64,000 bases of DNA from Natronococcus occultus SP4. Its GTDB lineage: Archaea > Halobacteriota > Halobacteria > Halobacteriales > Natrialbaceae. Shown here in pieces: positions 8,349 to 43,154 of this stretch. Both the position numbers and the translations under genes were made by a program. Numbering within the stretch: the stretch's first letter is position 1; each line of letters opens with the position of its first letter. Location: contig NC_019974.1 in NCBI RefSeq assembly GCF_000328685.1, forward strand, positions 1,293,001 through 1,357,000, given 5' to 3'. Under the pieces are notes generated by a model. It did no database searches. It had not been told where the DNA came from and saw only the letters and a list, made by a program, of their open reading frames with translations.

Positions 8349-8438
8349 CGAAGACGTCCGCTGATCGAGATACCGACTGGCAACGCGAACGGAGCCGAAC
8401 CGCCGTCGCGTTTCCGTCTGACGTGCTTTTATATTATC

Positions 8439-8464
8439 TGCAAACGCTTGCGCAAACGGACACG
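8439..8464. repeat. 6-bp-phased CG array A, upstream of parA-like gene
   Basis: Units at exact 6-bp spacing: TGCAAA, CGCTTG, CGCAAA, CGGACA, CG. The heptamer GCAAACG occurs at 8440 and 8452, 12 bp apart. It lies between a TATA-like stretch (CTTTTATATTAT, 8426-8436) and the ATG at 8468, a position expected for a repressor or autoregulatory site. Confidence 0.65.
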
Positions 8465-8467
8465 TAG

Positions 8468-9328
8468 ATGGCAGTCAGCACCAACCGAGCCGCGACCTTT
8501 CTCGACAAGGGTGGTACCGGAAAGACGACCTCCGCAGCCCACCTCGGCGTTGCGCTCGCCGAGACGGGCGAGGACGTTCTTCTCATCGATCTCGCAGGCA
8601 AGCAGGGCGACCTGGCGAAACACTTCGGCGTCTGGTCGGACGTACAGACCGAGATCGACGCCGACGACGACTGGCCGAACATCTCGACGGTGTTCGCCGA
8701 GGAGTGGGACCAGATCGCCTCGAAACTGGGCGACGCGGCCGTCGACAGCCTGATCGTCGAGACCGACGAGGGCGTCGACCTGATCCCTGCCCACCCCGGG
8801 CTCGACTCGCTGGACGCGGATCTCGGCAACATCGACGACGCCAGGGAACGATACTCCCGACTCGAACGCTTCCTCGACGAGTACATCGACGGGCGCTACG
8901 ACACCGTCCTCATCGATCTCCCCGGACTCACCAACAACGTCACGTACAACGGTCTGTGGGCGACGCGCAACGTCGTCGCGCCCGTCGAGATGGGTCCCTT
9001 CGAGAGCGAGCAGGCGACGGCGCTAGAACGGGACCTCGAGAAGATCGACGACCAGTTCGGCGTCGACGTCGACCTCGCGATGATCCTGCCGAACAAGGTC
9101 GACACCCGGACGAAACTCGCCACCGAGTACCTCGAAGGGTTCGGTGAGGAGTACGAGGGTGCCATTGCACCCGAACACGTCCCCGCGAGCCAGGACATCC
9201 GGAACGCCGCCGACGAGGGCCGAACGGTGTTCGCCCTCGAGGAACCGTCGACGACCGCCGAGCGCGCTCGAGAGGCCTTCCTCGAGAGTGCTGCGAAACT
9301 GCAGCAGCGACTGGGTGAGTCCCGATGA
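8468..9328 (+). CDS. ParA/MinD-type ATPase
   Basis: 286 residues. Deviant Walker A KGGTGKTT at residues 14-21 with the signature lysine, Walker A' LLIDLAG, and Walker B DTVLIDLPG. The usual DPQGN after Walker A' is replaced by AGKQGDL. ParA proteins dimerise on ATP and bind DNA non-specifically to move plasmids, chromosomes or other cargo. The second gene of the operon overlaps by ATGA. CG-phased arrays lie directly upstream and downstream, which is the layout of a partition cassette, but the same arrays also occur away from it. Confidence 0.9.
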   Translation: MAVSTNRAATFLDKGGTGKTTSAAHLGVALAETGEDVLLIDLAGKQGDLAKHFGVWSDVQTEIDADDDWPNISTVFAEEWDQIASKLGDAAVDSLIVETDEGVDLIPAHPGLDSLDADLGNIDDARERYSRLERFLDEYIDGRYDTVLIDLPGLTNNVTYNGLWATRNVVAPVEMGPFESEQATALERDLEKIDDQFGVDVDLAMILPNKVDTRTKLATEYLEGFGEEYEGAIAPEHVPASQDIRNAADEGRTVFALEEPSTTAERAREAFLESAAKLQQRLGESR

Positions 9329-9705
9329 GCGACGAGCTCGAGGAGCTGCGCAAGAAGACCGAACGGGGCGACCGAAACGACGAGATCAGGTCCGAAGCCG
9401 ACTCGGCGTTCGTCGACGAGCTCGTCGACGCGATCGAGGCCGTCGACAGCGGCGCCCGTCCGAAGACTGTCGCCGTCCGCGACCAGCCCGTGGCGGCGCT
9501 GCTTGCCGCCCTCGACGAGGACGACGCCGAGATGACTGCGGTCGGCAACGCACTCGAGTCCTCGCTAGGTCGGGAGCGCTCCGAGGAGTTCGATCGCAGC
9601 GAGATCGTCCGGCTGGCCGTCCGCGTCGGCCTCGAGACCGCGACGCCCGAGAAGAGCGAACAGCTCAGCGACGCCGTCGGACGCCACGCCCAGCGGAACC
9701 TGTAA
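9325..9705 (+). CDS. Small partner of ParA, possible ribbon-helix-helix DNA-binding protein
   Basis: 126 residues, highly charged. The central and C-terminal part reads PKTVAVRDQPVAALLAAL ... RSEIVRLAVRVGLE, which could be a ribbon-helix-helix or similar short DNA-binding unit; no other domain is recognised. It starts inside the stop of the ParA gene (ATGA) and is followed at once by CG array E. In ParA cassettes the second gene encodes the site-binding adaptor, so this protein is the first candidate to bind the arrays (inference). Confidence 0.75.
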   Translation: MSDELEELRKKTERGDRNDEIRSEADSAFVDELVDAIEAVDSGARPKTVAVRDQPVAALLAALDEDDAEMTAVGNALESSLGRERSEEFDRSEIVRLAVRVGLETATPEKSEQLSDAVGRHAQRNL

Positions 9706-9774
9706 TCGTTTTCGATTCCGTTTGCATTTTCGCTTGCGGAGTCAGTTGCGGTATCGTATACGAAATCGTTTCTG
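9701..9774. repeat. 6-bp-phased CG array E, downstream of the ParA operon
   Basis: Thirteen consecutive positions spaced 6 bp (9701 to 9773) carry CG at nine and CA or TG at four. The clearest units are CGTTTTCG at 9707, CGTTTGCA at 9719, CGCTTGCG at 9731, CGTATACG at 9755 and CGTTTCTG at 9767, all 12 bp or multiples apart. The array begins at the stop codon of the ParA partner gene. It codes for nothing. Confidence 0.7.
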
Positions 9775-9942
9775 CCCTATCGTTCTCGGCACTCTCTCGC
9801 GTGTCCGTGGCCAGAGACCGCGAACGGTGCGGGTGGTCGTCCGGTCTCGAACCGCTCAGATCGTCCTCGCGACTGACTGTAAACTACATTTCGCTTGATA
9901 GAGCCCTCCGACGAGCGGGACCGAAACCGCTTTGAGTACTAA

Positions 9943-9958
9943 CTGACTAGGCAGTCAG
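9943..9958. promoter_or_regulatory. Inverted repeat, probable TetR-type operator of the MFS exporter
   Basis: CTGACT-AGGC-AGTCAG, perfect 6-bp arms. It lies between a TATA-like TTTGAGTA (9931-9938) and the predicted leaderless start at 9960, so binding would block initiation. ACTGACT-type dyads are seen before drug exporters controlled by TetR/AcrR-family proteins in haloarchaea (recollection). No TetR gene is in the window. Confidence 0.65.
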
Positions 9959-9959
9959 G

Positions 9960-10016
9960 ATGGGAGACGAACGGCTCGAGCGAACGCGCCCGAGGACGGA
10001 AACGGTGTCCGAATGA
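9960..10016 (+). CDS. 18-codon upstream ORF coupled to the MFS gene
   Basis: ATG at 9960 opens a frame MGDERLERTRPRTETVSE that ends in TGA overlapping the ATG of the MFS gene (ATGA). The first ATG lies about 25 bp after the TATA-like box, where a leaderless transcript would begin. It may be a short coupling peptide that brings ribosomes to the MFS start. It could also be chance; no family is known. Confidence 0.35.
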   Translation: MGDERLERTRPRTETVSE

Positions 10017-11275
10017 GCCGGACCCTGTCGCGAGCGATCGATCGACTGCGCCGGGAGGACGGCCGGTACCTCGTCATCGGGTCGGTGATCCTCAGTACCT
10101 TCTTCATCGGATTCGGTGGCGGGGTGATCTTCCCGATCCTGCCGAATCTGGGCGTGCTATTGGGAATCTCGCCGTTCATGGTCGGCGTGATCCTCAGCGC
10201 GAACCGGTTCTCGCGGCTGGTGGCGAACGCGCCCGCGGGCGTCCTCGTCGATCGGATCGGGACCCGGAAACCGTTCGTCGTCGGGATGTTCGTCCAGGGG
10301 TTCGCCACGTTCGGTTACGTCGTCGCGATCGTCGCGCCCGCCCCCGAGGCGTGGTTTCTGAGCGCCCGGTTCCTGTGGGGCGTCGGCAGCGCGCTGGTGT
10401 TTGCGACCGCGTACACGATCGCGGCCGACGTCAGCGACGGCGGCTCCCGGGGAACCAGCATGGGTCTCATCAGGGGCGGCGTCCTTTTTGGCGTCCCGGC
10501 GGGGATGGTCGTCGGCGGCGTCGTCAGCGAGCTCGGCGGGGAGATCGCCGCCTTCCTCCTCGCGACGGTGTTCGCGTTCGTCGCCAGTGGCCTGGCGTAC
10601 GCAACGATCCCGGAGACCCACGTCGAGGGCGGGGCTCGCGAGGCGGTGAAGCCGTGGGACGTCGACGTCAGCGTGCCGGCCGTAACGGTCGGATTGATCA
10701 ACTTCGCGGTGCTGTTCGTCTACTTCGGCGTGCTGTTCTCGACGCTGGTGCTGTTTCTCGGCGAGAACGACATCGGTCTGCTCGGACTGGATGCCCAGGG
10801 CACCTCCGGGCTGTTCATGGCGATCACCGTCGTCACCGCGGGGATCTTTATGTTCGTCGGGGGGTACGTCAGCGATCTCCGGGAGTCCCGCGTCCCGGTG
10901 TTGCTCACGTTCCTCGGGGTCCTGTTCGTCGGCTTTCTCCTGCTTGGTCTCTCCGACTCGGCGGGCACCCTCGCAGTGGCCTGTCTGTTCATCGGGGCCG
11001 GACAGGGCGGGACGAGCGGTCCGATGATGGCCCTGCTGGGCGATCTCACCGCCGACGACCGTATGGGCCGAGCGGTCGGGACGAACAACGTCCTGGGCGA
11101 CGTCGGCGGCGGCGTCGGGCCGATGGTCTCGCTTCCGGTAACCGAAGTCGTCGGCTTCGCACCCGTCTACCTCGCCTGTGCGGCGTTGCCGCTGGTCGCG
11201 GCGACGGTGCTTTTGGGCGGCGTCTACCGGGAGACCGGCCAGTTCCTTCCGGCGACCGAGATTCCGAACCTGTAG
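10013..11275 (+). CDS. MFS transporter, probable drug exporter
   Basis: 420 residues, about 12 helices. Loop 2-3 reads GVLVDRIGTRKPFVVG (MFS signature) and helix 5 region has GVLFGVPAGMVVGG. N-terminus up to the first helix is short and basic. Overlaps the 18-codon ORF by ATGA and is controlled by a TetR-like dyad upstream. The gap before it holds array E and the promoter only. Confidence 0.9.
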   Translation: MSRTLSRAIDRLRREDGRYLVIGSVILSTFFIGFGGGVIFPILPNLGVLLGISPFMVGVILSANRFSRLVANAPAGVLVDRIGTRKPFVVGMFVQGFATFGYVVAIVAPAPEAWFLSARFLWGVGSALVFATAYTIAADVSDGGSRGTSMGLIRGGVLFGVPAGMVVGGVVSELGGEIAAFLLATVFAFVASGLAYATIPETHVEGGAREAVKPWDVDVSVPAVTVGLINFAVLFVYFGVLFSTLVLFLGENDIGLLGLDAQGTSGLFMAITVVTAGIFMFVGGYVSDLRESRVPVLLTFLGVLFVGFLLLGLSDSAGTLAVACLFIGAGQGGTSGPMMALLGDLTADDRMGRAVGTNNVLGDVGGGVGPMVSLPVTEVVGFAPVYLACAALPLVAATVLLGGVYRETGQFLPATEIPNL

Positions 11276-11283
11276 CCCAACCG

Positions 11284-11584
11284 TCAATCCCGACGCGCTC
11301 GCACCGGCTGGTCACGTTCGGCGCTCGAGAGCTGGGGCTCTCGCGGCTCGTCCCGCGGTCGCTCCTCGAGCCGGCTGGGGCGGAGCACGCGCCAGGCGAC
11401 GCCGGGGCGAAGCAGCGAGGACGACGGTTGTTGCATCAAGAGCACGTGCAGGAAGGCGTCGGTCAGCGTACTGTCGTGTGGGCCGTCCGAAAGAGCCGCG
11501 AGAGATAGCGGTCGAAGACGGCTCGTCCATGCGGGTTGGCGGCTCCGCCACCGTCGTACTGCGGACCGGTCGCGAGAGTCACGG
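11284..11584 (-). pseudogene. Frameshifted C-terminal fragment of an FAD-dependent oxidoreductase-like gene
   Basis: Two minus-strand frames join near 11463-11470. The first reads GPQYDGGGAANPHGR then FDRYLSRLFRTAHTT, the second continues TLTDAFLHVLLMQQPSSSLL and PGVAWRVL and ends at a stop at 11284. Together they look like the last ~100 residues of a flavin oxidoreductase of the geranylgeranyl-reductase type. The N-terminal part is missing; the cupin gene begins where it should be. Family assignment is tentative. Confidence 0.4.
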
Positions 11585-12121
11585 TCAGCAGTCGACCGGT
11601 TCGACCCACTCGGTCGCCGGTTCGCCGTCGGGGATCCCCAGGAACGTGACGGAGGCGACGGCGCCGTCCTCGCTGTCGGCCTTGTGGATATGGCCCGGAT
11701 CGATCCAGGCGTCGCCGGCCTCGTACGTCCGCGAAACACAGTCGTCCTCCATCGTGTGGTCGATCTCGCCCTCGAGCATCCTGACGATCGACATCCCGGG
11801 ATGGCGGTGCCAGCCCGAGCGCGCTCCTTCTTCCCAGACGGCCTCCGCGAGGACGACCGTCGACGCGTCCTCGAGGTTGACGGTGATGGGGTCCTCGGCG
11901 TCGTCGTAGGTCACGTCGAACGTCGCGGCGACCTCGTCGGGAAACGGCGCGTGTTCGGCAACTACCGTTACCTCGAAGCCGTCGGGTTCGTCGACGTCGG
12001 TCTCGTCCTCGTCGTCTGCGGTCGCCGAGGCGCTCAGCGCGATCGCACCCGACGCGGCGGCGCCGGCTTTCAGCACCGTTCTGCGGGAGAAATTCCCGAG
12101 TGAACTGGTGTTGGTACCCAT
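11585..12121 (-). CDS. Exported cupin-domain protein (Tat signal)
   Basis: 178 residues. SRRTVLK at 12-18 plus a hydrophobic alanine-rich stretch to about residue 34 is a twin-arginine signal, so the protein is exported folded. The remainder is a single cupin barrel with GWHRHPG (His105, His107), Glu in MLEGEIDH and a later HIHKA, the usual metal-binding set. Catalytic role unknown. Cleavage probably follows the ASATA segment. Confidence 0.88.
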   Translation of the reverse strand: MGTNTSSLGNFSRRTVLKAGAAASGAIALSASATADDEDETDVDEPDGFEVTVVAEHAPFPDEVAATFDVTYDDAEDPITVNLEDASTVVLAEAVWEEGARSGWHRHPGMSIVRMLEGEIDHTMEDDCVSRTYEAGDAWIDPGHIHKADSEDGAVASVTFLGIPDGEPATEWVEPVDC

Positions 12122-12231
12122 ACCTTTCGGTCGGGTGCAAGCGAGAGATAGCTATCCCGTGCCCGTTCTGCGGCGGTCGGTGGGTTCGCAACTACCGATG
12201 ATCGGTCACCCGCTGCACGGACGGCGATCGG

Positions 12232-12900
12232 TTACTCCCCCGGGTCGCCGTCCTGACCGATGACGACGGTGTTCTGGACGAGGCTTCGGTGGGCCCGTCG
12301 GAGCCGTTCCGAGAGCGCCTGGTGGGAGATGTCGATCTCCTCGGCCAGCGCCATCATGTCCGCTTCGCGGGGGATCTGGTAGTAACCGCGTTCGAAGGCC
12401 ATTTCGAGGGTATCCTGCTGGTCGTCGGTGAGCCCGAATCGCCCCTGCCGCCCCTCTTCGAGGCTGTAGACGGAGTGAAGCGTGAATCGAATCCCGTTAG
12501 ACCGACAGTAGTCGTTCGTCCGCGAGAGGCTATCCCGGTCCGGAAACAGCAGCCGGAACTGCCATCCGTCGGCGTCACCGGCTGCCGAGAGGACGGTGCC
12601 CTCTTCCTCGACGAGCATCTGAACGAGCGCGTCGACCCGACGAACCCAGTCCATCTGATAGAGCCGTTCCCCGTCGACGTCCGCGAGGAGCTGTACGTTG
12701 TCGACGGTCTCGTCGCTCTCGAACGCCGCCTCGATCCCCTCGAGATCGGGTGCGTCGACCCAGAGAAACGGCATGACCTCGCCGTCGGCGTTCGCGACGA
12801 TCCGTTCGCCCTCGCACTCGAGCCCCTCGATGTCGTCGATCGTCTCCTCGAGGACGAACTCCGCCGGCGAGAGTTCGATCTCCGCGACTGTCCCTCCCAT
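12232..12900 (-). CDS. Bat-type helix-turn-helix transcription regulator
   Basis: 222 residues. The N-terminal 150 residues form a bacterio-opsin-activator-type sensory module; residues about 160-215 contain the HTH_10 domain, with FGLTDDQQDTLEMAFERGYY, then IPREADMMALAEEIDIS and SERLRRAHRSLV. Predicted cytoplasmic DNA-binding regulator without a separate kinase. CG array B lies 70 bp before the start, in the promoter region, and is shared with the 3' end of the upstream regulator gene. Confidence 0.9.
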   Translation of the reverse strand: MGGTVAEIELSPAEFVLEETIDDIEGLECEGERIVANADGEVMPFLWVDAPDLEGIEAAFESDETVDNVQLLADVDGERLYQMDWVRRVDALVQMLVEEEGTVLSAAGDADGWQFRLLFPDRDSLSRTNDYCRSNGIRFTLHSVYSLEEGRQGRFGLTDDQQDTLEMAFERGYYQIPREADMMALAEEIDISHQALSERLRRAHRSLVQNTVVIGQDGDPGE

Positions 12901-12969
12901 ACCCTCCGGTAGGAGCGAACCGCCTTGGATTCATCGGACTCGTCGTTCGCGAGCGAGGCGGATAACGGA

Positions 12970-13043
12970 CGAAAACGTACTTCGATTCGTAGACGTTTGC
13001 GCAAACGCCTCCGCAAACGTTATCGATAACGATTCCGTTTACG
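12970..13043. repeat. 6-bp-phased CG array B between two bat-type regulators
   Basis: CG occurs at 12 of 13 consecutive positions spaced 6 bp (12970 to 13042; only 12982 departs). Core is the perfect palindrome CGTTTGCGCAAACG at 12994-13007, followed by CGCAAACG at 13012, CGATAACG at 13024 and CGTTTACG at 13036. The last unit reaches into the stop codon of the gene ending at 13039. The array is upstream of the regulator starting at 12900. Confidence 0.75.
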
Positions 13044-15240
13044 ACCGGTTCGCGGGTTCTTCCGGGGCCGAAAACAGCGACTCGAGGACTTTCAGCTCGG
13101 CCGTCCGGAGGTGCTGGTGGAGCGTCGGCGGTGCGATATCCAGCGACTCGGCGAGCTCGGTCCCGGAAGTCTCTCTCGGCCACTCGAAAAAGCCCGCGTA
13201 GTAGGCGGCCGAAAGCACGGCGTGTTGTCGATCCGTGAGATCCGCCGCGAGACGGCGCTGGATGGGCCGAGGATCGTCCGCGGGCCGGATGATCTGGCGA
13301 TGACAGCGCAGTTCGGCGTCCGGAGAGGCCGACTCGACCGTCTCGACGACGCGCTGGACGTCGACGCTCGGCGCGAGGTGAATCGTCACCCGGTAGTCGC
13401 CGTCCTCGATCACGGCGTCGTCGACGTACCCGTTCCGGGACGCGACGGCCGACAGTATCGGGGGATCGGTCACCCGGAGCTCGAATCCTGTCGGCGTCGC
13501 CTCCGTGTGGAGCGTGATGTCCGTCGGCCCGGGTAGCGCCCCGGCGAGCCCGCGGACGGTTTCGATCGCGTCCGGCGTCGCGGTTCCGTAGACGAGAAGC
13601 TCGCCGTCACCGATCGGGATCGTGTGGTCGAAGGTGATCGTTCCTGCCGTCTCGGTCGGAACGTCGAACGCCGAACCGACGTCCCGGATCCAGAACTCGA
13701 GCTCGACGAGGTCGTCGCCAAGCAACGCACGCTTGCGTTCGGTGGCGGCGATCGCGTGACCGATGATGTCGCCGAGCTGCGTAATTCGGTGCCCTTCGGG
13801 TCCTTCGAAGGCGTTCGGCCGTTCGGCGTAAACGTTCAACACGCCGTAGAGTGCACCTTCGTGAGTGATCGGGATCGCCGCGGACGACCGAACCCCGTAG
13901 TCCCTGGCTCGGTCCCGCCAGGGGTCGTACCGGGGCTCGTCTCCGAGCCGCTGCATCGTCTGGACCTCGCCCCGACGGAGCGCTCGACCGGTCGGCCCCC
14001 AGCTTCGCTCGTCGTCCGGATCGACCGAGATCGTGACGTCGTCGAGATACCCCTCGACCCCGGCTTCGGCCCGGACGTTCACCGTCCGAGTCGCGGCGCC
14101 GACGTCGCCGATCCAGGCGAACAGGTACGACTCCGAGTCTGCGAGGTGTTCACAGACCGTCGTTTCGACGTCCTCGCGAGTCGGCTGACCGATGATGGCG
14201 TGGACGATCCCGTTTGCGACCTCGCCCAGACTCGTCACCGCCGCGAGCTGCTCGCGCTGGCGCTCGAGTTCGCGCTCGTCCTCAACACGGTCGGTGACGT
14301 CGCGAACGACGCCGACCCGTCCGGCTTCGCCGTTCGCAAGCTCGAGCCGATCGAGACGGCTCTCGACGGGAACCGACTCTCCGTCGGCGCCGTACAGCGA
14401 CTCCTCGGTAACGGCGACGCGTCGACTCCCCGCGTCGAGTTCGGAGCGCGGCGTCCGAGACCGTTCGTCGAACACGAGGGTCGCGCGAGCTCCAAGCAGT
14501 TCGTCACGGTCGTATCCGGTCATCGAAGCGAACGTGTCGTTGACGAACGCGAACCGCCCGTCTCCGTCGAGGACGTAGATCCCGTCGTCGACGGTTTCGA
14601 CGATCCGTTCGTACCGTTCGAGCGTTCGCTCGCGGATCTTCCGTTCCGTGATGTCGGTAAAGTAGACCGAGAGTCCGGATTTGGAGGGGTGGACGATGTC
14701 CCGATACCACCCCTCCAGCGGCGGGAAGTAGGCCTCGACGGAGTTGGGTTTCTGGCGTTTCATCGCCGTTCGGTAGGTCGTCTCGAACGGCGTGTCGACC
14801 AACCCGGGGGCGACGTCCCACAGCCGCGCTCCCAGCGGATCCGCCACGTCCTCGTCGATCATCTCCGCGGCGACGTCATTGTAGTAGCTGAGCCGCCACT
14901 CGTCGTCGACCGCGAAGAACCCGTCGCTGATCCGTTTGATCTCTGCTTCGAGCCCGGATCGGGGAGTGCCGTGTCGTTGACGGTCCCCGGCCGCCTCGGT
15001 ACTGTCGCCTTCGGGCGGCAGCCACCAGACCCGGGCGCTCGCACCGACGCGTTTCGTCCGGAGTTGGTCTCGCTCGGCGAGTCGCTCCAGTCGGGCGTAC
15101 ACGCTTCGTCGGCCCAACTCCAGCCGTTCGGCCACCTCCGTCGTCGTTCGTGGCTCGCCCGAGCCGTCGAAGACCGCAAGCGTCTCCCGTAACGCGTCGG
15201 TCAGTTCGTCCATCGGTTCGTGTTCCTCGGTCCCGTCCAT
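13039..15240 (-). CDS. Multidomain sensor-regulator: HTH, two PAS, GAF, bat-type HTH
   Basis: 733 residues from the ATG at 15240 (an ATG at 15213 is also possible). Residues 13-75 form an N-terminal winged HTH (TEVAERLELGRRSVYARLER). Two PAS domains follow, about 95-210 and 222-335 (GIYVLDGDGRFAFVNDTF), then a GAF domain (about 360-510) and a bacterio-opsin-activator C-terminal region ending in HTH_10 (DLTDRQHAVLSAAYYAGFFE). It should sense small ligands, redox or light and bind DNA directly. The open frame extends to 15744 but the added part overlaps a plus-strand gene and has no family features. Confidence 0.9.
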   Translation of the reverse strand: MDGTEEHEPMDELTDALRETLAVFDGSGEPRTTTEVAERLELGRRSVYARLERLAERDQLRTKRVGASARVWWLPPEGDSTEAAGDRQRHGTPRSGLEAEIKRISDGFFAVDDEWRLSYYNDVAAEMIDEDVADPLGARLWDVAPGLVDTPFETTYRTAMKRQKPNSVEAYFPPLEGWYRDIVHPSKSGLSVYFTDITERKIRERTLERYERIVETVDDGIYVLDGDGRFAFVNDTFASMTGYDRDELLGARATLVFDERSRTPRSELDAGSRRVAVTEESLYGADGESVPVESRLDRLELANGEAGRVGVVRDVTDRVEDERELERQREQLAAVTSLGEVANGIVHAIIGQPTREDVETTVCEHLADSESYLFAWIGDVGAATRTVNVRAEAGVEGYLDDVTISVDPDDERSWGPTGRALRRGEVQTMQRLGDEPRYDPWRDRARDYGVRSSAAIPITHEGALYGVLNVYAERPNAFEGPEGHRITQLGDIIGHAIAATERKRALLGDDLVELEFWIRDVGSAFDVPTETAGTITFDHTIPIGDGELLVYGTATPDAIETVRGLAGALPGPTDITLHTEATPTGFELRVTDPPILSAVASRNGYVDDAVIEDGDYRVTIHLAPSVDVQRVVETVESASPDAELRCHRQIIRPADDPRPIQRRLAADLTDRQHAVLSAAYYAGFFEWPRETSGTELAESLDIAPPTLHQHLRTAELKVLESLFSAPEEPANRS

Positions 15241-15404
15241 CAATCTTCCGTCGACGGAGTCTTCCGACCGCAACCGATCCCAAATTGCGATCGGAACCAC
15301 GGTTATCGTCGTTTCACTGCAGAGTGTACCTAACAGTTTTTGCCCGCCGCTTACGGTCGAACAACCACTCGGCCGACGTATCGACAACCGATTCCGATCA
15401 GGCA

Positions 15405-15680
15405 ATGACAATCGAGACGACGGCGGCGTGCCACGACCGACTGACGGAGAACCGACACCGACTGACACTCGAGGCGCTGGCGGCCCTGACCGTCCCAGCC
15501 GGTCTCGAGGAGTTGGCCGCGGCGGTCGCGGAACATGACGACTCGTCGATGACCGTCGAGCGCGTCGCGATCGAACTGCACCACGCCCACCTCCCCCGGA
15601 TGACCGACAATGGCGTCCTCGACTACGACCCGGAGCGACGCCTGGTCGAGTCGGTCGCGTCCTCGATCGACGCCGACTAG
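15405..15680 (+). CDS. Winged-helix protein of the DUF7344 type
   Basis: 91 residues, no signal. The pattern ENRHRLTLEALAAL ... LEELAAAVAEHD ... VERVAIELHHAHLPRMTDNG followed by VLDYDPERRLVE is that of short haloarchaeal winged-helix proteins that accompany bat-type and HalOD1 genes. Likely a DNA-binding or protein-interaction module of a signalling network. Start ATG at 15405 keeps it clear of the divergent regulator. Confidence 0.8.
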   Translation: MTIETTAACHDRLTENRHRLTLEALAALTVPAGLEELAAAVAEHDDSSMTVERVAIELHHAHLPRMTDNGVLDYDPERRLVESVASSIDAD

Positions 15681-15727
15681 GGATCGGGCGCACCGGTGGG
15701 TCGCCGGCTTTGCGGGTGCTTCTAGAC

Positions 15728-15759
15728 CGTTTCCGTTTACGCAAACGGAAACGTATTCG
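15728..15759. repeat. 6-bp-phased CG array C, near-perfect palindrome
   Basis: Six consecutive CG at 6-bp steps from 15728 to 15758: units CGTTTC, CGTTTA, CGCAAA, CGGAAA, CGTATT, CG. The first 26 bases form a dyad with 11-bp arms (CGTTTCCGTTT and AAACGGAAACG) around ACGC. It lies between two convergent genes, so it is not in a simple promoter position. Confidence 0.7.
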
Positions 15760-15803
15760 TTGGACGACCGTTGCCGATCCGAATCACTGAGATCGATCGA
15801 CGC

Positions 15804-25225: not shown

Positions 25226-27694
25226 ATGACAAGCGAAACTTCATTCCGCGAAAAGGGACGTGCAGTGTTCCTGGCCGCGCTGATGGTTATGTCTGTTTTC
25301 GCCATGTCCGCAGCGTTTGCGGGCGGGGCGGCTGCAGAGGAGACCGAAGACGTTCCAGACGAAATAGATGCTGACCGCTACTACGAAGACCTGGATGCCC
25401 TCAGCGATGACGGCGTCTTAGTCGGACAAGAGATCGCTGTCGGCGGCTTCGATGAAGCCGACGGTGCTGAGATCCGCGAAGGATTCGCGGGCAGTGACGG
25501 CGACACCGTCGACACCTCGAGCGTCGAAGAGGTCGAGATTGACGGTGAGGACGTCGGCGTCGTTACCTTCGAGACAGACGACCTCGAGGACGATGACGCG
25601 TACCACGTTTACGTCCACGGTGAGTACCTCAACGACGAGGACGAGCTTGAGGAAAACCTGGAAGCAACCTTCTGGGCATCTGACGACGTCATCACCGTTG
25701 AGTTCGACGACGACTCCGTCGAACTCAACGACGACTCCGACGAGGCCACCACTGACCTTATCGTTGACACTGACCGCGAAGAGGTCGATGTCTACGTGAG
25801 CGGTGAACTCGGAAACGAGTCCGTCGACGATGACGACCTCGAAGCGATCTTCGGGGACGACCTCAATGCCGATGACAACGAAGTCCTGATCGAGGGCGTC
25901 GACTCGAACATCGAGGCTGACTTCTCTGACCAGAGCTCCGGCGACTACGAGTTCACGGTCGAGGTCGCTGACACGACGGCCGAGGATACGGCTGAGATCA
26001 CGGTCGACGAGCCGGCCGATGTTGACGCTCAGTTCGACGAGTCCACCTACGAGCAGAACGTCGGTGACGTCGCCGAGTACGAAATCGAACACACCGGCAC
26101 CGACAACCTCACGGTCGAGATGACCGACGAGGAAGAGTTCTACAACGCCACCATCGAGATCGAGGGCGTTGAGAACGAGGACAACGTGACGGTGCAGTAC
26201 AACACGTACTACGCGGGTCAGGAAGACCATAGCGGTGACGACGTCGTGACCGTTCTCGACGACGAAGGCGACGAGCTGGCTGTCGAGGACGTAACTGTCA
26301 CGGAGGAACTCGACGGTGACGAGAGCGACACCCTCGACGAGGGTGAGCGCCTCCTCCCCGGTGACTACGAGCTTGAAGTCATCCCGGCCGTTGCGGACGA
26401 CGAGGATGAACTCGACGAAGAAGAAACTGACGCCGCGGTCCTCCTCCTCGAGGAGCGATCGACCGGTGACATGAACACGTGGGCCCTCGCGGGTGACAAC
26501 TTCGATGCCGAGGACGTTGAACTCGAGGACATCGAAGACTCCGCAGTCTCCACCGACTCCGTTGCTGACGAGGACCTCCTCGTTGTCGGTGTCGAAGCGT
26601 CCGGTATCTACGGCTACGCGATCGATGACGGTCAGTGGACCGATGAAGGCGACGTCGAACTCGACTTCACCGACACTGACGAGCCACGCTACGGCGACGC
26701 TGACGAATTCAGCCTCGAAGACGGTGACGAGGTCATCGTTGACGAGGACGAGGACCGATTCTTCGTCGTCGTTGAGGCAACCGAGGAGTACATGGACGTT
26801 GACGAGACCTGGGACGTGACGTTCACGGTCGAAGACGGTAACGACTACGTTGACGACGACGAGACCGCTGACGCCCAGATCAACATTGAGGAAGCCTTCG
26901 TCGAACTCGTCGGCGACCAGGACGAGGACGACCGCTTCCAGATCGAAGCTGACAACGAGTCCGAGCTGACCGCCGAGACGAACCTCGCGCCCAGCACGGA
27001 CGGTGACTTCCGCCTCCGTACGACCTCCGAGGTCTACACCTCCGACGCCGAGGTCGACGGTGACGGCCTGCTGACGACGACCTTCGACCTCAGCGACCAC
27101 GAGGACGGTGACGAGATCCGAACCCTCCGCGTGAACGCTGGCGACGACAACCAGGCTGAGGCCGAGGGTGTCTTCGTCTCCGCTGCTGACGACGACGAGG
27201 AGATGAAGGACGGCTTCAAGATTGACGCCGACGCTCCGTCCGAGGTTACCGTTGACGACGACGCTAGCCTCGACGTGACCGTCGTGAACAACAACGACGA
27301 GGCCGGCACCGCGACGCTCGAGGCCACCGTCGGTGACGAGGAGTACACCGAGGAGCTCGAGCTCGACGCCGGTGACTCCGTGACCGAGTCCTTCGACTTC
27401 GACACCAGCGAGGAAGCTGAGATCGACTGGTCCGTCGAAACCGGTGACGACAGCGACTCCGGTACGCTGACCGTCAGCGACGAGGACGCGGCGAACGGTG
27501 AGAACGGCGCCAACGGCGAGAACGGTGCCAACGGCGAGAACGGTGCCAACGGTGAGAACGGCGCCAACGGCGACGACGCCAACGGTGCTGACGACGGCGA
27601 GGACGACGACGAGACCGTGCCCGGATTCGGTGTCGCCGTCGCCATCGTCGCTCTGCTCGGCGCCGCCATGCTCGCGACCCGCCGCCAGAACTAA
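25226..27694 (+). CDS. Major S-layer glycoprotein precursor
   Basis: 822 residues. Residues 1-35 are the surface-glycoprotein signal peptide (FREKGRAVFLAALMVMSVFA). The mature part is extremely acidic and beta-rich. Five N-glycosylation sequons: Asn197, 294, 307, 320 and 577. A (GENGAN) linker at about 757-786 replaces the usual threonine-rich stretch, and the protein ends with a PGF motif at 799-801, a hydrophobic helix and TRRQN, the archaeosortase (ArtA)/PGF-CTERM lipid-anchor signal. It forms the cell surface lattice. Codon use in the gene is more T-ending than in neighbours. Confidence 0.93.
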   Translation: MTSETSFREKGRAVFLAALMVMSVFAMSAAFAGGAAAEETEDVPDEIDADRYYEDLDALSDDGVLVGQEIAVGGFDEADGAEIREGFAGSDGDTVDTSSVEEVEIDGEDVGVVTFETDDLEDDDAYHVYVHGEYLNDEDELEENLEATFWASDDVITVEFDDDSVELNDDSDEATTDLIVDTDREEVDVYVSGELGNESVDDDDLEAIFGDDLNADDNEVLIEGVDSNIEADFSDQSSGDYEFTVEVADTTAEDTAEITVDEPADVDAQFDESTYEQNVGDVAEYEIEHTGTDNLTVEMTDEEEFYNATIEIEGVENEDNVTVQYNTYYAGQEDHSGDDVVTVLDDEGDELAVEDVTVTEELDGDESDTLDEGERLLPGDYELEVIPAVADDEDELDEEETDAAVLLLEERSTGDMNTWALAGDNFDAEDVELEDIEDSAVSTDSVADEDLLVVGVEASGIYGYAIDDGQWTDEGDVELDFTDTDEPRYGDADEFSLEDGDEVIVDEDEDRFFVVVEATEEYMDVDETWDVTFTVEDGNDYVDDDETADAQINIEEAFVELVGDQDEDDRFQIEADNESELTAETNLAPSTDGDFRLRTTSEVYTSDAEVDGDGLLTTTFDLSDHEDGDEIRTLRVNAGDDNQAEAEGVFVSAADDDEEMKDGFKIDADAPSEVTVDDDASLDVTVVNNNDEAGTATLEATVGDEEYTEELELDAGDSVTESFDFDTSEEAEIDWSVETGDDSDSGTLTVSDEDAANGENGANGENGANGENGANGENGANGDDANGADDGEDDDETVPGFGVAVAIVALLGAAMLATRRQN
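27494..27565 (+). repeat. Four 18-bp in-frame repeats encoding NGENGA
   Basis: Units AACGGYGAGAACGGYGCC at 27494, 27512, 27530 and 27548, differing only in synonymous third positions. They code for the linker between the mature S-layer domain and the membrane anchor. Slippage could change linker length. Confidence 0.9.
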
Positions 27695-38839: not shown

Positions 38840-38869
38840 GAGCGCCGCCGTCGGGCGACTCGGTCGCCC

Positions 38870-39559
38870 TCAATCGATCCGGATCGCTCTGGCCGCGGTC
38901 GCCTTGAACGAGGCCCGGATCGGCTCTCCGACCGCGACGTCGAGTCGCTCCGCACTGGCGTTGGTGATCAGCGCCTGGAGCTCGGCGTCGTCGCCGAGCC
39001 GAACCGTCACTCGCGTGATCGTCTCGCCGGCTTCCAGCTCCTCGACGACGCCCGTAAACTGGTTTCGGAGGCTCGTCTCGTCCGCTCGGAGCGACTCCTC
39101 GGGGTTCCCCAGCACGACCGCGTCGGAGCGGACGGTGACCTGAACGTCGGTCGCCCCGTCCGGGACCAGTGCCACGATCGGCCCGACCGCCGTCTCCACG
39201 GTCGCCAGCTCGCCGGTTCGGTCCCGAACGGTCCCCGCAAGGACCGACTCCGTCGCCTGCGCGACGCCGTCGAGCTCGGTCTCGTGTCGGGTGAACTGGC
39301 GACGCAGCTCGTGGGCGGTCTCGGTGAGCTCCGTTCCGCCGCCGCCGCTTCCACCCCGCCGGCGCTCCGTGAGCTCCCCGACGGCGTTCTCGAGTTCGAC
39401 GAGCCGTCGCTGGAGCCAGGCGTACGAGCGCCCGAGCTCGTCGGCCGCCCGCTGCAGGGAGCCGTACTGGTCGATGGCGTCGAGCATCTCGATGTCGCGT
39501 CGATCGATCGTGACGCCGTCGGCGGCCAGCTGCGTACTGTATTCCTTTTCGATCGTCAT
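38870..39559 (-). CDS. ModE-like regulator with TOBE (Mop) domains
   Basis: 229 residues. Residues 15-75 form a ModE/LysR-type winged helix (LDAIDQYGSLQRAADELGRSYA), followed by a glycine-rich hinge (RRRGGSGGGG). The second half carries molbindin-type strands (ASFKATAARAIRID and SLRNQFTGVVEELEAGE), which bind molybdate or tungstate. Located just downstream of the tup transporter, it probably represses it when metal is plentiful. Confidence 0.88.
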   Translation of the reverse strand: MTIEKEYSTQLAADGVTIDRRDIEMLDAIDQYGSLQRAADELGRSYAWLQRRLVELENAVGELTERRRGGSGGGGTELTETAHELRRQFTRHETELDGVAQATESVLAGTVRDRTGELATVETAVGPIVALVPDGATDVQVTVRSDAVVLGNPEESLRADETSLRNQFTGVVEELEAGETITRVTVRLGDDAELQALITNASAERLDVAVGEPIRASFKATAARAIRID

Positions 39560-39596
39560 TTTCGGCTGGAAAGGCGGCGTGAGCCGCCGTCACGGC

Positions 39597-40361
39597 TCAG
39601 TATATCAGTTCCCCGTCGATAAACTTCCGGGTCCGATCGTCGGTCGGACTCTCGAAGACGCCCTCGGTCGGGCCGACCTCGATGATGTCGTTTTCCAGAA
39701 GCACCGCGACCCGATCCGCAACCCGCTCGGCCTGGTGCATGTCGTGGGTGGCGATCGCCACGCCGATCTCCCGGTCGCGAGCCTTGAGGACGGCGTCCTC
39801 GATCAGCGCCGTGTTTCGCGGATCGAGATCGGAGGTCGGCTCGTCGAGCAAGAGGACGTCCGGATCGTACGCGAGCGCGCGGGCGAACGCGACGCGCTGG
39901 GCTTCGCCGCCCGAGAGCGACGCAGCGTCCTGGTCGACCTTCTCGCGCAGGCCGACGGTTTCGAGGGCCTCGATCTCGGCGCCGGTGCCGTTCCGTTGGC
40001 CGACGAGATCGGCGAACTCGCGGCGAAGGCGGTCGGTCCAGGACTCGCGGACCCGCAGCCCGTACTCGGCGTTGCGTCGAACGCTCGCGTCGAACAGGCT
40101 CGCCTCCTGGAAGACCATCCCGATCCGACGCCGAAGCTCGAGGCGTCGCCGTTCGGAGACGGTCCAGACGTCGGTGCCGTCGTACTCGACGGCTCCCCGG
40201 TCGGGAGCGTCGAACAGCGCGAGCAGCCGCAGGAGCGTCGACTTGCCGACGCCCGACGGGCCGATGATCGCGACGACCTCGCCCGGGGTGACCGAAAGCG
40301 AGACGTTCTCGAAGACCGGTTCGCCGTCGTAGCCGTGGTAGATATCGCTTGCCGTGAGCAT
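39597..40361 (-). CDS. tupC: Tungstate ABC transporter ATP-binding protein
   Basis: 254 residues. Walker A GPSGVGKSTLL, signature LSGGEAQRV, Walker B LLLDEPTSDL and H-loop ATHDM all intact. The start overlaps the permease stop by one base. It powers import by the adjacent permease. Confidence 0.9.
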   Translation of the reverse strand: MLTASDIYHGYDGEPVFENVSLSVTPGEVVAIIGPSGVGKSTLLRLLALFDAPDRGAVEYDGTDVWTVSERRRLELRRRIGMVFQEASLFDASVRRNAEYGLRVRESWTDRLRREFADLVGQRNGTGAEIEALETVGLREKVDQDAASLSGGEAQRVAFARALAYDPDVLLLDEPTSDLDPRNTALIEDAVLKARDREIGVAIATHDMHQAERVADRVAVLLENDIIEVGPTEGVFESPTDDRTRKFIDGELIY

Positions 40362-41077
40362 TATCGGTACCCTCCGTCGTCGCTTCCCAGTCGAACGACG
40401 ATCGCGTTGACGAGCAAGACGAGGACGACGAGGATCGCTCCGAGTATCATCGCGGTCTCGAAGCGGCCCTGGCGGGCCTCGAGCTGAATCGCGGTCGTCA
40501 GCGTCCGAGTGTAGGACTCCCCGTCCGCGCCGGCGATATTACCCCCGACGATGAGCACGGAGCCGACCTCGCTGATCGCCCGGCCGAAGCCGGCCAGAAG
40601 CGCCGTCGCGATGCCGTACCGGGCCTCCTTGATCGTGACGAGGGCGACGTCGAACCGCGTGCCGCCCATCGCGTAGGCCGCGTCGCGGACGTTCTGTTCG
40701 ACGCTGCTGACAGCGGCGAGGCTCACGCCCGTGATCACCGGCGTTGCGAGGACGAACTGCGAGATGATCATCGCCTCAGGGGTGAAAACGAGGTCGAACG
40801 ATCCCAGCGGTCCCTCGTTCGAGAGCGCAAACAGGACGACGAGGCCGACGACGACGCTCGGGAACCCCATCCCGGTGTTGATGATCGAGGTGACAAGCGC
40901 CTTGCCACGGAACTGCTTGAAACCGATCAGCAGCGCCACCGGGAGGCTACACAGCGTGCTCAGCGTCACGGCGACGAGGCTCACGTACAGCGAGACGCGG
41001 ACGATACTGCGGATGTAGTTCCACTCGAAGGGGAACTCGGCGAGCAGTGCGAGGTGTGTCGCTTGGTCGAGTGGCAT
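40361..41077 (-). CDS. tupB: Tungstate ABC transporter permease
   Basis: 238 residues, 5-6 helices, with the ABC coupling-helix motif [20 protein letters not shown] and [20 protein letters not shown], characteristic of the TupB group. Lies between tupA and tupC in one minus-strand operon. Confidence 0.9.
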
Positions 41078-41086
41078 CGATCCGGC

Positions 41087-42007
41087 TCAGTCGTCGGGCT
41101 CCCAGTCTTCGGGGACGTACTGCTGGAAGTTGGGCTCTTCCGAGATTGCTTCGGGGAAGAACAGCTGTTCGTCCTCGACGGTGTACTCCTCGATGATCTC
41201 CTGGCCCTCGGGACCCGTCAGGTAGCCGATGTAGGCCATCGCCAGATCGTACTCGACGTCGTCGTGAACGCCCGGGTTGACGGCGACGATCCCGTAGGGG
41301 TTCGCAAGCAGCTCCGTGCCGCCCTCGATCGGCCCCTCGACGTGGATCTCGAGGTCGATCTCTGACTGCATCGAGAGGACGGTCCCCCGGTCGGCGAGCG
41401 TGTAGTCGCCGGTCTGATCGACCTGCGTGATGACCTCGCCCATCCCCTGGCCGGCCTCCCGGTACCACTCGCCGAACTCGTCGACGCCGGCGGCCTCCCA
41501 GAGCTCGAGTTCCTTCGTGTGGGTTCCGGACTCGTCGCCCCGGGAGACGAACGTCGCTCCCTCCTCGGCGATCGCGACAAACGCCTCCTCGACGTCGTCT
41601 CCGCCGCCGATCCCGGCCGGATCGTCCGATGTACCGACGACGACGAAGTCGTTGAACATGAGATCGCGGCGGTTCACGCCGTAGCCGTCCTCCATGAACT
41701 CGTCCTCGAGCGACCGGGCGTGGACCATCACGACATCGGAGTCGCCGCTACGGCCCGTCTCGAGGGCGGCGCCCGTTCCCTGGAAGACGGTGTCGACGGT
41801 GACCCCGTACCGGTCCTCGAACGGCGCGTTGAGTTCGTCGAGCAGCCCCGTGTCGTACGTGCTCGTTGTCGTCGTCAGCGTGAGCGTTTCCCCGCTGATC
41901 TCCGGATCGTCGTCGCCGGCGTCCTCGTCGCTGCTGAGGCAGCCGGCGAGGCCGATCGTGGCGCTCCCCCCGACCCCCGCGAGCATTTTGCGCCGATGTA
42001 TCGCCAT
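41087..42007 (-). CDS. tupA: Tungstate-binding lipoprotein
   Basis: 306 residues. Tat-like start (HRRKML) with lipobox LAGC (Cys23). The mature protein begins with [17 protein letters not shown], the TupA tungstate-binding signature TTTSTxDTGLL, and has [12 protein letters not shown] and a later LFFPEA. High-affinity oxyanion binding on the cell surface. Anion choice between tungstate and molybdate is inferred from the TupA signature. CG array D lies in its 271-bp upstream region. Confidence 0.92.
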
Positions 42008-42183
42008 AGATACTACGTCGAACGCTCCATATAAATCGATTTCGGAGAGCAGTTTACTCGATGGCGATATGGCGCGAGAATCCGCTCTCTTGTAACTGAA
42101 TTTGGTTACGGGTCCGGAAGGTGCGCGACGCTACTCGAGTACGCTATCCGGATCGCCCGAGAGACGCTTCTGTCACGCAGTAG

Positions 42184-42222
42184 CGAGGACGTAGTCGCAA
42201 ACGCATGCGGAAACGCAAACGT
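42184..42222. repeat. 6-bp-phased CG array D upstream of tupA
   Basis: Seven consecutive CG at 6-bp steps: 42184, 42190, 42196, 42202, 42208, 42214, 42220, with units CGAGGA, CGTAGT, CGCAAA, CGCATG, CGGAAA, CGCAAA, CG; CA at 42178 continues the phase. Lies between the end of phaB and the tup operon, 180 bp before the tupA ATG. Confidence 0.65.
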
Positions 42223-42278
42223 ATGGGATCTCGAAGGCGACGGCTCCGGTGGGTACCCCGAGAGAACGGTGTTACGGC

Positions 42279-43022
42279 CTAGAGGTCCATCCCGCCGTTG
42301 ACGTCGATTACCTCGCCCGTGATGTACGAGGACTCCTCGCTCGCCAGGAAGCGAACGACGGCGGCGATATCCTCGACCTCGGCCAGCCGCTCGAGGGGGA
42401 TCCCCGAGATGATCCGTTCGAGGACGTGGTCGGGAACGCCCTCGACCATGTCGGTCCGGGTGAACCCGGGGGCGACGCAGTTGGCCGTCGAGCTGCCCTG
42501 GGCGAACTCCAGGGCGATCGTCCGAGTGAACCCGAACATCCCGCTTTTCGCGGTGGCGTAGTTGGCCTGTCCGAAGTTGCCCTGCTTGCCGACGACACTC
42601 GAGATGTTGATGAGCCGCCCCTCGTCGGCGTTCCAGATGTCGTCGTAGAACGTCTGGGTGCAGTTGAACATCCCGCCGAGGTTGACGTCCATCACGCGAT
42701 CCCACTCCGCGCGGGACATCTCGGTGAACTGCTTGTCGGCGGTGATGCCGGCGTTGTTCACCAGTACGTCCGCCGGGCCGAACGCGTCGTGACAGACCTC
42801 GCGCATGTGCTCGACGTCCTCGGGGACCGCGACGTCGGCCTGGGCCGTGACGGCCTGCCCGCCCGCGTCCTCGATCGCCTCGACGGCCTCGTGTGCGGCC
42901 CCCTCCGACGACCGGTAGTTGATGACGACGTTCGCACCCTTCTCGCCGAGGTGTTCCGCGATTCCGCGTCCGATCCCACGCGCCGATCCCGTGATGACAC
43001 AGGTACGTCCCTCCATGGACAT
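42279..43022 (-). CDS. phaB: Acetoacetyl-CoA reductase PhaB-like (SDR)
   Basis: 247 residues from MSMEGRTCVITGSARG. NAD(P) motif TGSARGIGRG (11-20), NNAGIT, catalytic Ser142, Tyr155, Lys159 (GNFGQANYATAKSG). Adjacent to the PHA synthase genes, so it most likely reduces acetoacetyl-CoA to (R)-3-hydroxybutyryl-CoA with NADPH. Could also act as an ACP/CoA reductase elsewhere. An upstream ATG (43043, MVEYRVT) is less likely. Confidence 0.85.
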   Translation of the reverse strand: MSMEGRTCVITGSARGIGRGIAEHLGEKGANVVINYRSSEGAAHEAVEAIEDAGGQAVTAQADVAVPEDVEHMREVCHDAFGPADVLVNNAGITADKQFTEMSRAEWDRVMDVNLGGMFNCTQTFYDDIWNADEGRLINISSVVGKQGNFGQANYATAKSGMFGFTRTIALEFAQGSSTANCVAPGFTRTDMVEGVPDHVLERIISGIPLERLAEVEDIAAVVRFLASEESSYITGEVIDVNGGMDL

Positions 43023-43154
43023 CGTTACCCTATACTCCACCACCGATTGTTATATAACGACCTGTCGAGTTTCATCCAATACTGTGTCGAATAAAAGATG
43101 AAGCGGTCGGCCTGGTGGCCCGGATGACCGGTTCTCGCGGCGCGTCGACGGCCG

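Follow-up and report, generated by a model that had tools for sequence, protein, structure and literature searches.

CG arrays on a 6-bp lattice as candidate partition sites of haloarchaeal ParA operons

Canonical ParABS systems use an HTH/CTPase ParB and a 16-bp parS site. ParF/ParG of TP228 pairs a Walker ATPase with a ribbon-helix-helix (RHH) partner, and the flexible N-terminal tail of the partner stimulates the ATPase. The delta/omega system of pSM19035 consists of a ParA ATPase and a small RHH partner that uses contiguous short repeats, one per dimer; these repeats sit in promoter regions and act as parS, and omega needs at least 4 contiguous heptads for full ParA activation (PMC9499535). 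In the SegAB system of the Sulfolobales the 3' end of segA overlaps the 5' end of segB, and SegB sites are found upstream of the segAB operon and elsewhere (PMC5120986, PMC12284271). The SegB site is a 13-bp palindrome, TCTAGASTCTAGA, and is mostly intragenic (PMC12284271). Segregation in the polyploid haloarchaea, which have many chromosome copies and large plasmids, has been described as an open question (PMC5120986, PMC10085750). No haloarchaeal centromere site was found in the literature searched, and the haloarchaeal ParA/parS literature that can be read without subscription yielded no description of the arrays reported here or of their partner family.

The locus studied here lies in a 64-kb stretch of Natronococcus DNA, which is called the window. 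It contains a ParA operon and five arrays in which CG dinucleotides recur every 6 bp. The arrays are very probably the cis-acting sites of a ParA-type partition system whose partner is a small dimeric DNA-binding protein, probably of the RHH type, a reading that is based on sequence comparison. New here are the partner family, the 6-bp lattice, a readable specificity code and a conserved chromosomal copy in Natronococcus. The features are as follows.

8416 to 8423, plus strand: promoter element GTCTGACG, whose TCTGAC core recurs in relatives
8427 to 8436, plus strand: TATA-box-like TTTTATATTA of the ParA operon; its spacing to GTCTGACG recurs in relatives
8439 to 8464, no strand: array 1, TGCAAACGCTTGCGCAAACGGACACG, downstream of the TATA box and ahead of the ParA start codon; putative operator; score 18.7
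8468 to 9328, plus strand: ParA-family Walker ATPase, 286 aa, with the motif FLDKGGTGKTT
9325 to 9705, plus strand: partner protein, 126 aa, putative centromere-binding protein with the strand motif K47-T-V-A50-V-R52-D53
9702 to 9771, no strand: array 2, beginning at the partner stop codon; putative parS-like site; score 54.8
12969 to 13044, no strand: array 3, the longest of the five, flanked by two bat-type genes; putative parS-like site; score 58.9
15720 to 15761, no strand: array 4, in the gap between two convergent genes (3' ends at 15680 and 15804); putative parS-like site; score 34.5
42181 to 42240, no strand: array 5, 33 kb from ParA; putative parS-like site; score 36.2

The first gene of the operon matches Pfam AAA_31 (1.8e-19), has ParA/Soj structures among its PDB matches, and matches NCBIfam ParA_partition at 1.5e-17, which is under the curated cut-off of that model. 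Its FLDKGGTGKTT motif carries the deviant Walker A (KGGxxKT) of type I ParA ATPases. In related operons a small partner gene also lies directly downstream of ParA, and ParA-partner operons have the repeated cis site near the operon that belongs to type I partition. The partner gene is present as a single copy in the genome, and its start overlaps the ParA stop by 4 bp (ATGA, 9325-9328), a likeness to SegAB. However, SegB sites are mostly intragenic while the arrays are intergenic, and no 13-bp site resembling TCTAGASTCTAGA is seen in the arrays. Delta/omega resembles the locus in combining a ParA ATPase with a small partner, in its contiguous short repeats and in their promoter position, but its repeats are 7-bp WATCACW heptads and those here are 6-bp CG hexads (12 or 13 bp in other classes). 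No homology of the partner to the delta/omega or SegAB partners was found, and no sequence match between the partner and ParF/ParG of TP228. The locus shares with canonical ParABS a ParA ATPase and sites clustered near the operon; the differences are a partner of 126 aa without a ParB domain match and sites that are long hexad arrays.

The fold of the partner was approached by profile and structure searches. No convincing family match was obtained in Pfam, NCBIfam, PHROGs or PDB sequence searches, and a profile search of PDB sequences, SegB included, found no SegB to E 10. RHH_1 matched 5 of 65 members of the partner family, at E 0.016 or worse. The AlphaFold2 model of the partner (pLDDT 91) has two N-terminal helices followed by an extended stretch at 43-53 and helices at 54-65, 67-80, 91-106 and 108-124, with an extra helix that counts against the RHH fold. 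When this model was compared with the PDB by Foldseek, the highest probability was given to the SegB-DNA complex 7dv2 (0.30, E 3.0; TM 0.57 by target length), a fold match that is not significant, and a model of the core only gave no RHH match. The order of strand and helix, the alternating pattern, the weak likeness to SegB and scattered weak RHH_1/aCcr1 matches led us to adopt RHH as the probable fold and working assumption. The partners of two Haladaptatus plasmid operons (L214, L215) seem to be without the extra helix of the window protein, which would bring them to nearly canonical RHH spacing.

The original prediction placed CG arrays at 8439-8464, 9701-9774, 12970-13043, 15728-15759 and 42184-42222, and all five are present there. 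In the longest, 12970-13043, CG occupies 12 of 13 successive 6-bp positions as had been claimed, with the single gap at 12982. Each array had also been said to include a characteristic octamer; this fails for array 2, which has CGTTTGCA in place of an exact CGTTTGCG or CGCAAACG. The arrays are indeed intergenic save for a few bases at stop codons, and array 5 comes after a PhaB/FabG-like gene on the minus strand (42279-43043), at its 3' end.

Arrays were scored by log-odds for CG every 6 bp with A/T spacers, and the null consisted of 60 sequences generated from the 64-kb window by a first-order Markov model (best score 29.0, mean 20.4). Against this null, arrays 2 to 5 lie beyond chance, with Gumbel P values of about 4e-9 for array 3, 3e-8 for array 2, 3e-4 for array 5 and 6e-4 for array 4. 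Array 1, at 18.7, falls within the null and is not significant alone. Arrays are found at the same position in the operons of relatives, and array 1 would stand only by its position and this conservation. A strict pattern, CGNWWN three times followed by CG, was scanned over the whole genome (4.31 Mb, 3 contigs). Of its 14 occurrences, 4 fall in the 33 kb around ParA (binomial P 6e-5), and the reversed control matched once in the whole genome. The 14-mer CGTTTGCGCAAACG was rejected as a genome-wide motif because it has only one palindromic place and is too strict.

A coding-like stretch at 26829-26916 that reads as acidic protein sequence scores 32.6 in a codon-driven manner, so acidic codon runs and arrays cannot be told apart by score alone. 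They are distinguished by the intergenic position and the A/T spacers of the arrays. The look-alike is rich in GAC/GAA codons, and is a warning for motif scans in haloarchaea.

Relatives of ParA were taken from named genomes, and about 100 distinct haloarchaeal operons, plasmid and chromosomal, were pooled. Autocorrelation of the pooled flanks of 100 operons, with no motif assumed, gave z 11.7/19.6 at lag 6. Self-match was present at lags 6, 12, 18, 24 and 30 and absent at 3, 9 and 15, so the lattice is not codon structure, as the original prediction had argued from the window. Upstream of ParA, 56 of the 100 related operons have the TCTGAC core near -60, whatever their array class. The fuller element, GTCTGAC(G), stands some 60 bp ahead of ParA and a few bases upstream of the TATA box; it is shared by operons of different array classes and may be a common activator site or a BRE-like site.

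The letters of the hexads differ with the class of the partner, which is named by residues 50 and 52 of its putative DNA-reading strand. A-x-R partners are accompanied by CGCAAA/CGTTTG, S-x-R partners by CGTATA, and G-x-R/K partners by CGATAC or CGGTAA. Partners with Trp or Tyr at position 52 go with CCTATAGG repeats, mostly at 12-bp steps (61 of about 100 spacings). In a third class, whose partners carry an N-terminal 'KRH' motif, GTATC recurs at 6/7-bp intervals that make 13-bp steps; this sister class of different geometry (L039-L045, L154-L174) has GTATC or GTAACC on the 6+7 step. CG arrays flank 22 of 27 operons of the Arg/Lys class, against 0 of 28 in the Trp/Tyr class (P 6e-11); with clustering at 60% identity the figures are 8 of 10 and 0 of 14 (P 6e-5). 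CTATAG has the opposite distribution. For background, the array threshold was reached by 8 of 707 windows of 240 bp drawn at random from the same loci. No scored CG array was found at the R-class operons L086, L142 and L148, nor at L213, which is a near-copy of L142.

In the ParA tree the partner classes interleave; 7 changes are required to explain the Trp class, and well supported branches make no fewer than 4 of them unavoidable. In 3-4 of the 4 independent tree contrasts a change of protein class is accompanied by the matching change of array type, and in none by the opposite one; four contrasts are too few to reach significance. Common descent appears not to be the whole explanation of the match between array and partner. 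Where two operons share one contig (L072, L077), each is flanked by its own matching array type. The repeat sequence appears to follow the partner, not the host.

These comparisons suggest that two partner residues, 50 and 52, decide which letters the array carries. Arg at 52 goes with CG hexads and Trp or Tyr with CCTATAGG. Within CG arrays, Ala50 partners have AA/TT at the spacer centre in 162 of 230 spacers, and this is the commonest centre in 20 of 20 operons; with Ser50 the centre is AT (48 of 66 spacers, 10 of 10 operons), and with Gly50 it is TA (12 of 16 spacers, 3 operons). When operons are clustered at 70%, 12 of 12 clusters fit the residue-50 code (permutation P 7e-5). Nearly all Trp/Tyr partners have Ser50 or Thr50, and their repeats have the AT centre too (CCTATAGG). 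Residues 48, 50 and 52 of the strand K47-T-x-[50]-x-[52]-D would lie on one side of it.

The code was applied to plasmid operons outside the set from which it was derived (Halovenus, Halocatena, three Haladaptatus types, Halarchaeum, Halococcus p5 and Haloquadratum), all of them less than 90% identical to any used in the derivation, and 8 of 8 fit. The test is out-of-sample and not strictly blind, since the strand of L214 and L215 was placed by eye after their DNA had been printed and the rule had not been written down beforehand. Three further plasmid records, L213 among them, are near-copies of training members and were not counted.

Arrays are found beside ParA-partner operons across genera and plasmids, which answers the question of conservation raised with the original prediction. 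An array lies directly after the partner gene, and usually also before ParA, in Natronococcus, Haloterrigena, Natrinema, Natronorubrum and six Halorussus. Among plasmid records, ParA occurs in 43 and the partner in 22, where it is annotated as hypothetical protein. The 434-kb plasmid of Halorussus aquaticus has eight arrays at 64-79 kb, with ParA at 65.8 kb, and two 50-kb control stretches of the same plasmid have none. All four arrays in the 21 kb read of a Natrinema plasmid fall within 2.3 kb of the operon. The system of ParA, partner and arrays in Natronococcus lies on the chromosome and is conserved between species. Other Natronococcus genomes have arrays in the gaps orthologous to those of arrays 2-5, although the array DNA is mostly no longer alignable, and for array 5 the orthologous gap of two relatives also holds an array. 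The six Natronococcus genomes with a close partner have 5-9 strict matches each. Strict matches number 0 in G089, which is without a close partner, in G094, where the partner is broken, and likewise in G093, whose partner is divergent; no close bat orthologues at which the bat gap could be compared were found in these three genomes.

Of the 125 related genomes, 68 have at least one strict match, but the partner is present in only 26. Relatives lacking the partner also contain CG hexamer repeats, so the lattice alone is not diagnostic, and strict-array presence was rejected as a family-wide marker of the partner. Many CG hexamer repeats (CGGATT, CGGTTC, CGGAAA) were seen in the Natrialbaceae genomes G007, G008, G010, G042, G046 and G081-G083. 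The repeats in Natrialbaceae are part coding and part intergenic, and several of the genomes have no close relative of the partner.

Such repeats are the case for regarding the arrays as neutral hexanucleotide repeats or low-complexity drift, which is frequent in these genomes; several Natrialbaceae have 15-27 matches and no close partner. Neutral drift is nevertheless very improbable here, in that the spacers vary within arrays while CG stays, the arrays are kept in orthologous gaps though the DNA no longer aligns, and they are associated with the operon and co-vary with the partner. The same tracking of the ParA partner by array type weighs against two functions put forward in the original prediction. 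A regulon of the neighbouring bat-type (HTH_10) regulators would account for array 3, which is directly upstream of the HTH_10 gene at 12232-12900. However, arrays also accompany the ParA operon at loci and on plasmids where no bat gene is adjacent, and array 4 lies between convergent 3' ends; the bat link looks incidental, and we give this explanation very little credence. Replication iterons or origin elements share with the arrays the general form of repeated short sites near ParA that is seen in plasmid iterons, but 0 of 16 Orc1/Cdc6 genes lie near the window, the nearest being about 120 and 370 kb from ParA, and a role in replication is highly unlikely.

The arrays might be operators only, with a partner that autoregulates its own operon and represses neighbours and has no centromere role. 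Array 1 lies between the TATA box and the start codon, and relatives also have an array in the ParA promoter. Arrays 2 and 4, however, are outside obvious promoters, one after the partner gene and the other between convergent genes, and long arrays after the partner gene and clusters spread over 15 kb exceed what an operator needs. We consider operators alone unlikely, though less so than the other three explanations. A partition iteron, also among the functions originally proposed, is strongly supported, since arrays accompany ParA-partner operons in different genera and on plasmids. The claim that a protein is spaced every 6 bp likewise gains strong support, as the letters of the array co-vary with the putative DNA-reading strand of the partner.

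The sequences show that the arrays exist, where they lie, their lattice, their conservation and their covariation with the partner. For the partition system we infer DNA binding, dimer geometry, autoregulation and centromere function as follows. The strand K-T-x-[50]-x-[52]-D would sit in the major groove, one hexad being read per dimer, and adjacent dimers would load at 6-bp intervals. The flanking letters would be chosen by residue 52 (Arg for CG, Trp or Tyr for CC..GG) and the spacer centre by residue 50 (Ala for AA/TT, Ser for AT, Gly for TA). We propose that dimers packed in this way along consecutive hexads form a nucleoprotein stretch. At the array in the ParA promoter the partner would repress the operon and so autoregulate it. 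The arrays that follow the partner gene or lie in gaps close by may be parS-like centromeres on which the partition complex forms, and this complex would stimulate ParA through the N-terminal tail of the partner, as omega of pSM19035 does.

A wider reading is put forward tentatively: the partners may form a large undescribed haloarchaeal family of centromere-binding proteins with a two-residue code and a 6-bp lattice, and the window may hold a conserved chromosomal centromere of Natronococcus, with four or more arrays spread over 33 kb. The work gives candidate sites on chromosomes and plasmids for a family annotated as hypothetical, together with a specificity code. If the reading is true, parS sites could be predicted for dozens of haloarchaeal plasmids, and the family would be a clean model of protein-DNA co-evolution.

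A stretch of about 3.4 kb at 38840-42283, which includes a substrate-binding lipoprotein gene (41087-42007), is absent from two other Natronococcus genomes and ends beside array 5. Outside cellular genomes, phages gave one weak ParA match and viral contigs gave no relatives. A contig labelled Candidatus Nealsonbacteria (L087, PUMP01000007.1) carries a ParA operon of haloarchaeal type with CGTATA arrays, and is probably a mis-binned haloarchaeal plasmid.
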